Shown: one piece after another, positions 22,581 to 28,022 of the stretch
How the letters are laid out: every line of letters begins with the position of its first letter
Position numbering within the stretch: position 1 is the stretch's first letter
Assembly: GCA_910592205.1 (NCBI GenBank)
Contig: CAJVPJ010000339.1
Span: 1-28,022 of the forward strand
DNA: 28,022 nucleotides
Reading direction: 5' to 3'
Source of the DNA: Paraglomus occultum
Taxonomy: Eukaryota; Glomeromycota; Glomeromycetes; Paraglomerales; Paraglomeraceae
Notes under the pieces: model-generated
Database searches by the model: none
The model's input: only the letters and a program-made list of their open reading frames with translations
Told to the model about the DNA's origin: nothing
Translations under genes and position numbers: made by a program

Positions 22581-25185
22581 ATGTCTAAGCTTCCACCCAA
22601 AGATGATCCGGAGCGCACTGCCAGAGAAGTGCAGGCATTGAGACAACAGGATAAGGCTATTGAAATCAGTGAGGCATTAAGGCAGGCATCATCTTTCTTT
22701 GAATACTTATATAAAGAAAAGTGATTTTAGTAGTTGGATATTCATCACACGCCATCTTACAGCGAGGGAAAACTACCTACCACTGCCCAAATAACTTCGG
22801 CTATCGAAGATGTTCAACGCTCGGACGTGCTTTACGATACGGCACGTGGAATGTCACCCTCGGGGAAAAAAGTCCTTGTAGACACGGAAAAGGTGTTGGA
22901 AAGTGCAAAGGCGGTATTGGAAGAAAAAAATGCAGAAGACGAGTTACAGAAAGTTATCTATTACGGAACACAAGCTGCTAAGGATTTGAGTGGTATGCAA
23001 TATCAATGCTTGATAACATAGTCTGTGAAGTTCAGTTTCGACAATATTTGAACATCGCTTCTAATTTTAAAAATCTGATGAATAGACGCGGGGGTAACAG
23101 ACATTCCGGAAGACTTGAAAGCAAGGGCTGGGGAGGGTGCCACAACAACGCAATCTCTCGCACGCGAAGGCATTAGTAAAACAATGAATCTTGCGCGTCT
23201 CCTTGTATCTTCATCCGAATTTCGTAAACTAGTCAATGATATCCTGTCCATCATTCGCGACGTTCTCCGTCAATCCGTTGCATCAGGAGATGAGGAGCAG
23301 CGAGATATCGGTGCTGGTGTTGGTACCGATCATGAGAAATCAGTAGGCCAAGCCATTGACGAGACCACTGGTAAATTACGCGAGACTGTTCATCCGATGG
23401 CCCGTTCGGCCGCTGATGTTGCTGAACCAATTATCGAACGCTATAGTAAGGGAGATATATCCTTTGAGGAAGCAGCGAAGACCGGCGCTAAGACCTTTGC
23501 TTCGAACGTCCGCTCGTCTATTACTAGTCTTAGTCTACCACCTGAGAAACGCGATGCGATCGTTAATAGATTTAAGAATTTAATTGTCCAAGCTCAGAAG
23601 AGTAAAGAATACCATGATGCATTAGAAGATTTTATTAGTATAGTAACACACATCGCTTCGCACGCCCAACAGTTGACGACGCATGTCTCGCAAAAAACAA
23701 GCGAGGCACAGACGCCCGCGTTTGAGGTTGCCGAACAAAATGCGAAAGAGCTGGTTGAGAATTTTGCCGGCCATCAGTCACTCGATTCTCTGATTTCCGT
23801 GCTGAGAGAATTCTCTGTCAAAGTACAAGAGGACAATGAGCTTCGTCAATACTTGTGTGATCTAAGTGATTTCGTGATCAAGTCGTTGCGGGATCCTGAA
23901 TTTATTCAGCGGACGGATTATAATTCTGCTGTATCTCAACAAATAGATAGGGGCCGCAAAGTTCTATTGGAGAATTACGGAGAAATAAGCCAGCGCTTAG
24001 TAGACGAAGCAAGCAAATTCAATGAAGCGTTGCAAGAAGATAGGACAACTCGTCAGTTTACGAAGGATTTGGAGACGTTGATAGAGGATTTGTTCTTGGA
24101 CGAAAGAGGCAGACCTACGATTAAATTGGAACTTGTGAAAGACTTCGCTAAAATATTGCCAGTTATTGGGGAGAGGCTCAAGTATATTTCTCTACCCCGA
24201 ATAGAAAAGTGCGTTACTACTATTGATCGCGTATTATTGGCCTGTGTTCTTTTCCGATACAGTACTAACGGTTTATTTGGGTTTGTAGTTCGGACGATCA
24301 ATATGATTATGTTTTTGACAATATTGTGCTTCACGTGTCGGAAATTATTCCAAAGCACGTCCATATGAGTTTGAATGCAGACATCAACCTTGATAGGGAA
24401 GAAAAAGATATCGTACAGTATACAATTATGGTTGACATGTACGTTTTCGGTTCGGACGGTTTGTTGTCGGTGTTATGCATCTGTCGTATTTCGGTTTACT
24501 TATCGTTGTCTTCTATAGTTCTAAATTGCATGCAGATGCACGGAATATAGCCTTTTTCTATAAAAAGAAGAAGGGAATGATCAACATGATGGATGTAAGT
24601 GACCTTGTTCACAGGAATAGTTGCTCGTTTTGACACTGGCTCTAACTATTTTATGACTTCATTGCAATTAGGTTGGGCTTATTGACTTTGCCGTTCCCGA
24701 GGATACTGGTATGAGGATCCATGCGAAAGTTTGTTTGAAACTTCCCACCGATGATAAACCTTTCTCGCTCGAAGTATGGGAGGCTCGCACCGAAATTTCG
24801 GAACTCAAGTTAAGATTGCACGACACACGGCATGAGTAAGTAGCATGGAGAGCTGTGCGAATTTTCTTTTTTCGGATCATATAAGTTACTTGCGATTGTT
24901 AATCCGGTTCTATTCATCATATCCATTAGCATGCTTTACAAATTATTGGTCCCATTAGTCGAATCAAGAATTAAGCGTCAGATTGAAACTCTCATTACAG
25001 AGCGTATTTGCGAAACTATATCGTTTATTGAAAATCAAATTGGGCGTGCACATTTGCATTTTGCAGAAATGCAGCAGAAGCAGAAACAGCGAGATGATAA
25101 TGCAGGAAGTGGACCGCATGTCAGTGAAGAGAGACGAAAGAATCCGTGGGAGAGCGCGGCATTTAACCAAAGTCAAGCTGTTTAA
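22581..25185 (+). CDS. HAM1-like protein (HAM1_N plus HAM1_C, formerly DUF5923/DUF4449)
   Basis: Seven exons join in phase: 22581-22685, 22734-22992, 23086-24208, 24289-24438, 24519-24594, 24672-24835 and 24930-25185 (2133 nt, 710 residues). The N-terminus shows the family pattern of a short charged helix (QQDKAIEISEALRQ), then GKLPTTAQITSAIEDV and a long helical region with LARLLVSSSEFRKLVNDILS, the HAM1_N core. From about residue 490 comes ILPVIGERLKYISLPRIE, then NIVLHVSEIIPKHVHMSLNA, RNIAFFYKKKKGMINMMDVG and a C-terminal helix, matching HAM1_C, which has a BPI/TULIP-like lipid-binding fold by family annotation. HAM1-type proteins are mainly fungal and linked to hyphal fusion and lipid handling; a direct role here is inference. 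The C-terminal 50 residues are Gln/Arg-rich. Intron 1 must start with GC (22686) to avoid in-frame stops at 22722-22733. Confidence 0.85.
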
Positions 25186-26322: not shown

Positions 26323-26736
26323 TTAAACACATTTGGCAAATTTGTGAGTTCCTTTTCAAAATTTCATACCATCTAATACTTGACAAGCATTGCATTGTAA
26401 TCCATTGCAAAAATGCTGACAAGTATCACATAAATCAGTTCTTGAACTTATAATTTAGATTTCTGGTGTTAATTGATGTCATAGTTTTCTGAATGCATCA
26501 TATTTCAATGATTTCAATTTGCTGTTTTCTTCCAAACCTGCTAGAAAGTTCTGGTAAACAGATTTGTAAGTTGTTTCTGCTGGTAAAAAGATAACTGTAA
26601 TAAATGAGAGGCTGATTATGATGTGACTGTAAATTGACCAGGGTGACTGATGATGTAATAATGGTGCTCAGGAACTTGTTAATTTTAATGCTCACTTTAT
26701 CATACCAGAAGGTGAGGAATACAAACCATAACATGA
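26323..26736 (-). pseudogene. Mobile-element integrase-like N-terminal region, readable with TGA as Trp
   Basis: On the minus strand one frame runs from 26736 to a TAA at 26325-26323, interrupted by four TGA (26694, 26670, 26481, 26358) and one TAA (26457). Reading TGA as Trp gives FLPAETTYKSVYQNFLAGLE, YDAFRKL-W-HQLTPEI, then ISSRTDLCDTCQHFCNGLQ. This order (a Leu-Pro segment with a TTYKSV-like start, an F-x-x-L-W motif, then a DLCxxC knuckle) is what I know from repeated eukaryotic integrase-core mobile elements in cnidarians and mycorrhizal fungi. The TGA in the F-x-x-L-W motif stands exactly at the conserved Trp. The catalytic core is absent: the frame ends soon after the knuckle, at the border with fungal DNA. 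The TAA at 26457 (between PEI and IISS) marks decay. Family assignment is from memory of the motif pattern and is tentative. Confidence 0.45.
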
Positions 26737-26972
26737 TTAATATAGGATTACCTCTATATTAATATATAAAAATATTAATATGAAACTAATTTACATTAAG
26801 TCCACTATGGAACCCAAGAATTACAGCACTATTAGAAGCATTCTAAAGAAAGCTCAAGGAGAGAAAATTGCGCCTTATTATTATGTTTTTTAAAAAGAAA
26901 ACCAAAATAGTAAAATAAGGTTAATTTGAACTGATAAGCTATAAAAATACTTATTGTGAATAACATAAATAA

Positions 26973-27260
26973 GTAACCTACTGTGATACTGATTACCAAG
27001 ATTTTACTGATTATAATAGCAGTTTAAAAAAGCTCTGACAGAGCCTAAAGAACTCAGCAACAGAGTCTATTGCTATGGAAAGAAGCTGAAAAAGACAATG
27101 AGAACTAGTCAGTAAATTTAATAAACCTTTAGACCAACCAGTTTGAATTAGAGAGTATTTAGCATGAAAGAAATTCTACTCTCAAAATGGATTACCAGTT
27201 GATCATTGAAGAAATGGTAGCTGCTGATTATACTCACTCTCTTCAACAATTGGTTTATAA
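26973..27260 (+). pseudogene. TGA-as-Trp open frame upstream of a coiled-coil ORF
   Basis: In phase with 27165 the plus strand has no TAA or TAG for 95 codons (26973-27260) but seven TGA, at 27036, 27087, 27099, 27144, 27165, 27207 and 27225. With TGA as Trp the first part reads like genuine protein: SLKNSATESIAMERS-W-KRQ-W-ELVSK, then FNKPLDQPV-W-IREYLA-W-KK. Beyond about 27190 the better coding frame is the next one, where the coiled-coil ORF starts, so a frameshift near 27190 is likely. No ATG lies near the left end. No family recognised. Confidence 0.4.
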
Positions 27261-27646
27261 GGAGTTAGTTGAAAGAGACAAAAAAAGAGGAGAATATTTA
27301 AAAGAAATTGCTGATTGTCAAGAACATATAAATGATTTGGAAAAAGAGGAGCAAGAATATTTAGCTAACCTTAAATACCACAATGCCTGGCATTCAAGAA
27401 TGGCAAGAAAAAGCCAAAAAACAAAAAGAAATCACAGAAATATTGGCTAAAGAAATTAAGGAATGACGAGAAAGACAAGTCCCTAAGCCTTCACCTTTGC
27501 CTCAAAAACAAACCAGAGTCAAATTGTTAGCTAATAAAATTATGACTCAATTCCAGCAAGTGGTGAAACTTCCAACATTTAAAGAAAAGCCTAATAATCC
27601 TTTTTCCATTTACAGAGCTTTACTTATAACCCGTTTGTTCTTTTAA
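27187..27646 (+). pseudogene. Frameshifted coiled-coil protein with an in-frame TGA
   Basis: The ATG at 27187 opens MDYQLIIEEMVAADYTHSLQ and a charged heptad-like region (EIADCQEHINDLEKEEQEYL). Near 27375 the coding signal moves to the next frame, which continues the coiled coil as IQEWQEKAKKQKEITEILAK, then EIKE, a TGA at 27464, RERQVPKPSPLPQKQ, and ends at TAA 27644-27646. Read straight, the first frame stops at 27450 with a basic tail that looks like frameshift read-through. So the locus carries one frameshift, plus a TGA that fits Trp (KE-W-RERQVP). TGG also occurs once in the second frame. It overlaps by 27 bp the 3' end of the convergent minus-strand ORF. No known family; structural, phage or element-borne protein are all possible. 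Confidence 0.4.
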
Positions 27647-28022
27647 AAAGACAATCATTTGTTTTAAATAATTAACTGGCTTTGGACAAGCAATGTCCTT
27701 AAACTCATCTCTGACAAATGCACGAATATTTTGGTAAAGATACTCCTGCCTTTTGTAATCCAAAGGAGGAGGTGTTAGTACGAGGATGGAAAAAGATTTA
27801 AGTTTTTTGGTAATTTCAGAAACACTTGCTTTTCTAGTTTTTAACAAATTGAATTCAGTAAAAACACCATTAGCAACTATTTGAGCTTTGACAATTCCAG
27901 GGTTAGCTGCTTCAAAGAGAAAGTGTTGATATTTTTGTAAACCACTCAATTTCTTAAAGAAAATCCCCAACACAGAGTTAAAATCTAAGTATTGAAAGCC
28001 TTTTCCGTTGTCATAACGTTGA
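27620..28022 (-). CDS. Uncharacterised protein, 5' end beyond the window
   Basis: The frame is open from the window edge to a stop at 27620 (at least 133 codons). The visible part starts QRYDNGKGFQYLDFNSVLGI and continues FKKLSGLQKYQHFLFEAANP, then SFSILVLTPPPLDYKRQEYL and a Lys-rich end KQMIVFLKEQTGYK. It contains no Trp codon of either kind, so it does not test the genetic code. A GTG at 27973 is a possible bacterial start, but coding continues upstream of it in the same frame, so the true start is probably outside. No family recognised. It is the only undamaged frame in the foreign-looking segment. Confidence 0.5.
   Translation of the reverse strand, partial: QRYDNGKGFQYLDFNSVLGIFFKKLSGLQKYQHFLFEAANPGIVKAQIVANGVFTEFNLLKTRKASVSEITKKLKSFSILVLTPPPLDYKRQEYLYQNIRAFVRDEFKDIACPKPVNYLKQMIVFLKEQTGYK

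Follow-up and report, generated by a model that had tools for sequence, protein, structure and literature searches.

The end of contig C339 holds remnants of a transposon family whose living lineage, judging from the codons of its many copies, was almost certainly translated with UGA as tryptophan. The window analyzed here is this whole contig, 28,022 bases long, which belongs to a 32.3 Mb assembly with 1,408 contigs. With a probability of roughly 0.6, we favor an endobacterium as the compartment that translates the element and the fungal nucleus as its sink. Because the transposase was found on no recognized endobacterial contig, we infer this compartment rather than observe it. Unless a second genome within the cell decodes it, a transposon family whose genes the host can read only in part is difficult to account for.

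Contig context and make-up of the terminal segment

A fungal gene encoding a protein with a HAM1-like N-terminal domain was located at 22581-25182 (plus strand) by Pfam (HAM1_N) and exon alignment. The protein shares 86% identity with one from Paraglomus brasilianum, and the remaining named matches are to arbuscular mycorrhizal fungi (15 hits), which points to Paraglomus or a near relative as the host. Its aligned exons use the standard code, as the first-pass annotation had claimed for fungal genes on this contig, with TGG at both of the Trp codons that could be checked (two only). In-frame stops sit within gaps of the protein alignment and are intron-like. The exception is a TAA at 24266, where the alignment piece overlaps the end of another piece.

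Read from sequence likeness, the segment 26323-28022 is a decayed transposon copy cut by the contig end, plus an adjoining fragment of a second copy. The main copy contributes the C-terminal part of a DUF7869 transposase (residues 471-586; 27674-28021, minus strand), which is 85% identical to the copy at locus L030 (E = 1e-67). Its frame is open and is ended by the contig end; the Pfam DUF7869 domain was found on related copies. An internal transposase piece (residues 179-249; 26386-26598, minus strand) aligns to L030 by tblastn with 73% identity (E = 6e-30). The two pieces occur in reversed order, and the internal piece is therefore attributed to a second, older copy. In this piece the TGA at 26481 corresponds to the conserved Trp 218, and a TAA at 26457 falls at a Gln. 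Next to it, the 3'-end region of the element (26600-26773, minus strand, given relative to the transposase) has matches in many other copies. Here it is without the terminal ~43 bases and the end motif; other copies continue to a sharp end.

An extra module at 26774-26922 (plus strand) is absent at the matching point in L009, L010, L013 and L016. It contains AATATAGGATTACC, which is similar to the region where the transposase starts. It also has a short ORF, at 26807 (MEPKNYSTIRS...), similar to the beginning of a gene on contig C612 that is like those for tyrosine recombinases. The link of this ORF to recombinases is based on a Pfam hit on L055 and on likeness of the N-terminus by eye. Pieces of tyrosine-recombinase-like genes lie near or inside transposon copies at L063 (892-1340, plus strand, C612), at L037 (530-767, minus strand) and in the window (26807-26893), and the piece on C612 has a TGA at a Trp-like site. 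An Rfam search of the window returned no match.

The remaining feature is cargo ORF 1 (26973-27643, plus strand), which is broken by frameshifts and was delineated by codon alignment to the protein P0136 and to ten other copies. In the window, this ORF has TGA at Trp positions 27036, 27087, 27099, 27144 and 27464, TGG at a Trp (27401), TGA at an Arg (27165) and TAG at a Gln (27362).

The first-pass annotation had counted eleven TGA, one TAA and no TAG in two frames of this segment, one on each strand, and had taken both frames as coding with TGA as Trp. The eleven TGA and the lack of TAG hold, and the single TAA holds if two terminal ones are left aside: the plus frame (26973-27260) has seven TGA and a terminal TAA, and the minus frame (26736-26323) has four TGA, the internal TAA at 26457 and an end TAA at 26325. 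Across all frames of the segment, TAA is more frequent than TGA (71 versus 45 on the plus strand, 55 versus 32 on the minus strand). Conserved Trp codons account for five of the eleven TGA, namely the first four listed above for cargo ORF 1 and that at 26481 in the transposase. The further TGA at 27464, which had been proposed to fit in the same way, proved to be a sixth by codon alignment of the cargo. The six other TGA provide no evidence regarding the code. That at 27165 is an Arg codon, the cargo alignment no longer follows that frame at 27207 and 27225, those at 26694 and 26670 fall in the element end region, and that at 26358 is beyond the aligned part. The two frames are real in part and their boundaries need correction, although the conclusion drawn from them about the code was right.

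The transposase family and its genetic code

Read with code 4, the L030 transposase matches DUF7869 (PF25273) with 62.9 bits against a cut-off of 26 (E = 3.9e-17). It has an RNase H-like catalytic core and an integrase-like fold, in keeping with a DDE-type enzyme. Asp 311, Asp 390 and Asp 432 are invariant in 60 relatives and are the putative catalytic residues. A profile search of PDB with the transposase yielded only one chance-level row (E = 0.86). Protein searches of the assembly with transposase pieces gave 157 and 154 matches, many of which are parts of the same copies.

To count codons, 37 non-redundant copies or fragments were codon-aligned to L030 read with TGA as Trp, with the repeat loci L029, L041, L050, L052 and L056 and alignment pieces below 40% identity omitted. 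At the five Trp sites we found 85 TGA, 52 TGG, two TAG and one TAA, with other codons in eight cases. Among the 15,972 codons outside these sites there are 60 TAA, 39 TGA and 30 TAG, which resembles ordinary decay. The contrast between Trp and other sites in TGA versus TAA/TAG is strong (Fisher p = 3e-25, with related copies treated as independent), and it bears out the earlier reading of UGA as Trp. The transposases of L030 (591-codon frame) and L037 (615-codon frame) are single frames, open to a TAA except for TGA codons, all of which are at Trp sites. Of the 31 copies in which 300 or more codons were aligned, ten show no stop beyond the Trp sites over 4,591 aligned codons in these ten; frameshifts may be hidden among them (e.g., in L020 and L033) since alignment pieces of different frames were counted together. 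In 13 copies all five Trp sites are TGA or TGG, and none of the 13 is free of TGA; thus, none of them could yield the complete protein under the standard code.

In the ten copies free of other stops, the fraction of Trp codons that end in A is 0.61, near the values for Leu TTR, Gln, Lys, Glu and Arg AGR (0.66-0.93). A tree of 31 of the 37 copies (those with 300 or more codons), calculated with the Trp columns excluded, implies at least 1, 10, 7, 7 and 2 changes between TGA and TGG at the five sites (at least 27 in total). These counts may be overestimates because the tree has a star-like shape and little resolution (support is below 80 on 15 of its 28 inner branches, and the bootstrap had not settled).

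Omega between near-intact copies, calculated with code 4, is 0.06-0.23 at dS values of 0.37-0.73 (33 of 120 pairs; dS is saturated in pairs with L037). We also calculated pN/pS for 31 of the 37 copies (leaving out the outliers L037, L042 and L047 and copies below 200 codons), using the majority codon among the other copies for the ancestor and splitting multi-hit codons crudely. The median is 0.17 in copies without other stops, and the ratio climbs to 0.62 with the number of other stops (Spearman 0.78). This pattern points to strong selection with UGA as Trp until late in the history of each copy, and to decay with all three stops afterwards. Repeated independent arrivals from a source under selection would explain it better than a single burst. 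TGA is interchangeable with TGG at conserved Trp positions under selection, as in the genes of genomes that read UGA as Trp.

Ordinary decay could place TGA in silenced copies without any meaning for the code, given that C-to-T changes generate it from CGA or TGG. Strongly decayed copies indeed contain all kinds of stops, and the window TGA at 27165, which is CGA in eight of ten other copies, fits this explanation. However, TGA outnumbers TAG by 85 to 2 at the Trp sites, although each is a single G-to-A change from TGG, and ten copies with TGA at Trp and no other stop are under strong selection. As an account of the family, ordinary decay is extremely improbable. Plain or CpG decay as the source of the TGA codons is rejected on the Trp-site counts and pN/pS, the one window TGA aside.

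Code-4 bacterial contigs in the assembly

The assembly includes a full bacterial 16S rRNA gene on C537 (1,447.6 bits, the sole match), adjoined by a gene for ribosomal protein S15 that is in code 4 and scores above the NCBIfam cut-off. Contigs C393, C16, C593, C853 and C89 carry TGA-containing genes for Xer-type recombinases, a DNA methylase, a Ulp1-like protease or kinases. These six contigs, with the code-4 bacterial loci L059-L062, L064-L067 and L070, most likely derive from a Mollicutes-related endobacterium (MRE), an assignment based on code, gene content and literature and not on 16S placement. Three further contigs (C1222, C662 and C877) are presumed to be MRE on the basis of kinase matches in which every stop is TGA. 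MRE contigs have been reported in fungal assemblies, with Paraglomeraceae mentioned among the hosts (PMC11423566). The presence of bacterial contigs in the Paraglomus assembly calls for caution in its use.

The 3' tail of the 16S rRNA gene (L062, 2730-4256, minus strand, C537) is without the usual anti-Shine-Dalgarno CCTCC. By eye, there is no clear Shine-Dalgarno sequence at the inspected gene starts in the element and on the MRE contigs. A search for the MRE in GTDB with an exact 56-base 16S pattern gave no match, to which we attach little weight given the length of the pattern. A search for a release factor gave a fragmentary match. Eukaryotic-type protein kinases are encoded on C393 at L059 (57-1601, plus strand, six TGA) and L060 (8-1201, minus strand, four TGA), in agreement with the transfer of kinases from host to endobacterium described in an earlier study (PMC10507103).

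None of the listed transposase matches lies on the nine presumed MRE contigs, and none of the 83 places with the 5' start motif is there. This absence is weak evidence, as few or no copies are expected on these contigs at the mean genome density, and the MRE sequence is incomplete. The link to code-4 endobacteria made in the first-pass annotation is supported by the presence of their contigs in the same assembly and by one homologue of a cargo gene (see below); the transposase was seen on none of those recognized.

Ends, dispersal and the possibility of nuclear decoding

The segment is a repeat, with at least 50 matches in a DNA search of the assembly (40 of 509 candidates scored). The insertion of a single bacterial gene is ruled out on this basis. 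The 3' end of the element is sharp: its core, CTGCAACAAAACCAGACAAAGTGA, was found 178 times per strand, 356 in all, when up to two mismatches were accepted (none in the control), and the 19 places that we inspected have differing flanks. The 5' end is just upstream of the start codon, and the start motif occurs at 83 places (control 0). The sequence before it differs among most copies and is partly shared by L030 and L031. The bacterial segment in a fungal chromosome that had been envisaged at first therefore gives way to a transposon family with these 83 start-motif and 356 end-motif matches. Copies are dispersed over many contigs with different flanks, which are fungal where inspected; by eye, copy L019 comes shortly after an exon of a fungal kinase and the 5' splice site of that exon. 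We found no inverted ends that could be paired within a single copy, and no target-site duplication was seen by eye in L020, L027 and L048.

A LINE-type reverse transcriptase adjoins a transposon copy at L018 (3-2032, plus strand, C1342), with a 386-codon frame. A 407-codon open frame beside element ends at L026 (4188-5408, minus strand, C117) has three TGG and no TGA; by eye it is like a protein-primed DNA polymerase, and Pfam gave no match above the cut-off.

Hundreds of discrete insertions in fungal contigs, the occurrence of transposase relatives in fungi and the lack of a copy on the MRE contigs would all be expected of a resident nuclear transposon, if the fungus decoded UGA as Trp in its cytosol via a suppressor tRNA or strong read-through. 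We consider this unlikely. Three to five UGA per gene would demand very efficient decoding. About 115 of 146 kinase matches in the genome are without an in-frame stop, and matches with at least two TGA and no other stop are confined to five contigs, including C393 and C593, which carry code-4 bacterial genes. The reverse transcriptase frame in L018 has nine TGG and no TGA. No tRNA gene was found in 34 element loci or in the window. A UCA-anticodon pattern matched two places, neither of which is a tRNA by ARAGORN; this is not a strong test, since the tRNA-Trp of the MRE and that of the mitochondria escaped the pattern as well.

Cargo genes

Variable ORFs, most with TGA, accompany the transposase in different copies (these were chosen by eye from a filtered list). 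Cargo 1 is present in the window, in L009 and in nine other loci; cargo 2 in L020 (seven TGA, one TGG) and L071; cargo 3 in L023 and L033; and other cargo ORFs in L024, L030, L031 and L037. Pfam and NCBIfam searches of the cargo proteins identified no family above cut-off. At six Trp sites of cargo 1, the 11 copies (including the window) have 34 TGA, nine TGG and two TAA. Two full-length database relatives have Trp at those sites, although the code assumed by their gene caller may differ.

A homologue of cargo 2 is encoded on the bacterial contig C16 (E = 9e-7; 361 codons, six TGA and three TGG), with TGA at the matching Trp. Neither the transposase nor the end motif occurs within the surrounding 4.5 kb. 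For cargo 3, no match was found on any of the nine presumed MRE contigs, and relatedness to endobacterial genes was found for one of the two cargos searched in the genome.

The cargo 2 homologue, on a code-4 bacterial contig, argues against another source with UGA as Trp (the mitochondria of fungi, or a protist with this code) that would have handed copies on to several mycorrhizal fungi. Table 4 is also the code of the mitochondria of moulds, and the lack of the element on MRE contigs is compatible with such a source. We regard it as improbable nonetheless: no relative is named as a protist among the best 120 of 487, and mitochondria are not known to host such transposons, which counts against a mitochondrial origin.

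Relatives in other fungi

Named transposase relatives (best 120 of 487) include proteins of arbuscular mycorrhizal fungi and none of Mollicutes, where the first-pass annotation had directed the search; the rest are unnamed metagenome proteins. Searches of GTDB contigs, IMG/VR, and plasmid and phage collections gave no confirmed relative of the transposase.

In the close clade, none of 12 gene models (from Ambispora, Geosiphon, Diversispora and Gigaspora) has Trp 314. Eleven of the 12 skip at least eight residues around this position, and there are skips elsewhere in the models too. These skips are most naturally read as introns that gene predictors introduced to bypass TGA, in which case use of this code would extend to these four genera. 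Models of genes near such elements may include artificial introns. Fungal homologues with TGG at the Trp sites, which the earlier reading had named as evidence against itself, were not found among the named close models, all of which are without Trp 314; the residue is present in seven of eight unnamed metagenomic relatives, several of which start directly behind an upstream Trp site, and in all eight models compared from a clade with 40% identity.

DUF7869 proteins of Rhizophagus and Gigaspora (P0034, P0039, P0042 and P0047) belong to the same family, with 36-40% identity and Trp 314 present. Unlike the Paraglomus element, the eight models compared do not have Trp at positions 91, 139 and 405. 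These proteins are presumably encoded in the standard code, as their models are uninterrupted at Trp 314.

Proposed life cycle and comparison with known systems

If the endobacterium is the compartment that reads the element, the transposon would multiply and be translated in the MRE within the fungal cytoplasm. Released or transposase-bound DNA would get to the nucleus and insert there as discrete units. In a nuclear copy, UGA would halt translation (for example, beside the invariant Asp 311), and decay would follow. The nucleus would act as a sink, with divergent copies representing separate arrivals. Regarding the origin, a fungal transposon may have entered the MRE and adopted its code, an option suggested by the relatives with ~40% identity: these proteins are fungal, and their models include Trp 314. 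Against an endobacterial source, hundreds of clean nuclear insertions would need transposase to be present in the nucleus.

More tentatively, and at a little short of even odds, we propose a two-compartment element. Its genes would work only in the endobacterial code with UGA as Trp, and it would insert in host nuclear chromosomes, carry interchangeable endobacterial cargo and occur in several mycorrhizal genera, possibly as a recoded, formerly fungal transposon flowing back. If true, the copies would be a datable record of DNA flow from endosymbiont to host nucleus, the element could serve as a means of exchanging genes between kingdoms, and a codon-level marker would separate the two DNA sources.

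In the openly licensed literature, we found no description of transposons that reside in fungal nuclei and are written in the code of an endobacterium. Endosymbiont DNA occurs in host nuclei, as in the case of Wolbachia inserts, which are likewise symbiont DNA in a host chromosome and unusable to the host as such. Those are genome fragments, whereas the DNA described here consists of many discrete transposon units with their own ends and cargo. Starships, the cargo transposons of fungi, are also mobile elements with variable cargo in fungal chromosomes; the element described here has a different recombinase, is far smaller and uses UGA as Trp. MRE have been reported to carry kinase and MGMT genes of fungal origin (PMC10507103), a gene transfer that involves the same partners as here. 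The reported direction is mainly from fungus to bacterium, whereas here a dispersed transposon in a bacterial code resides in the fungal nucleus.
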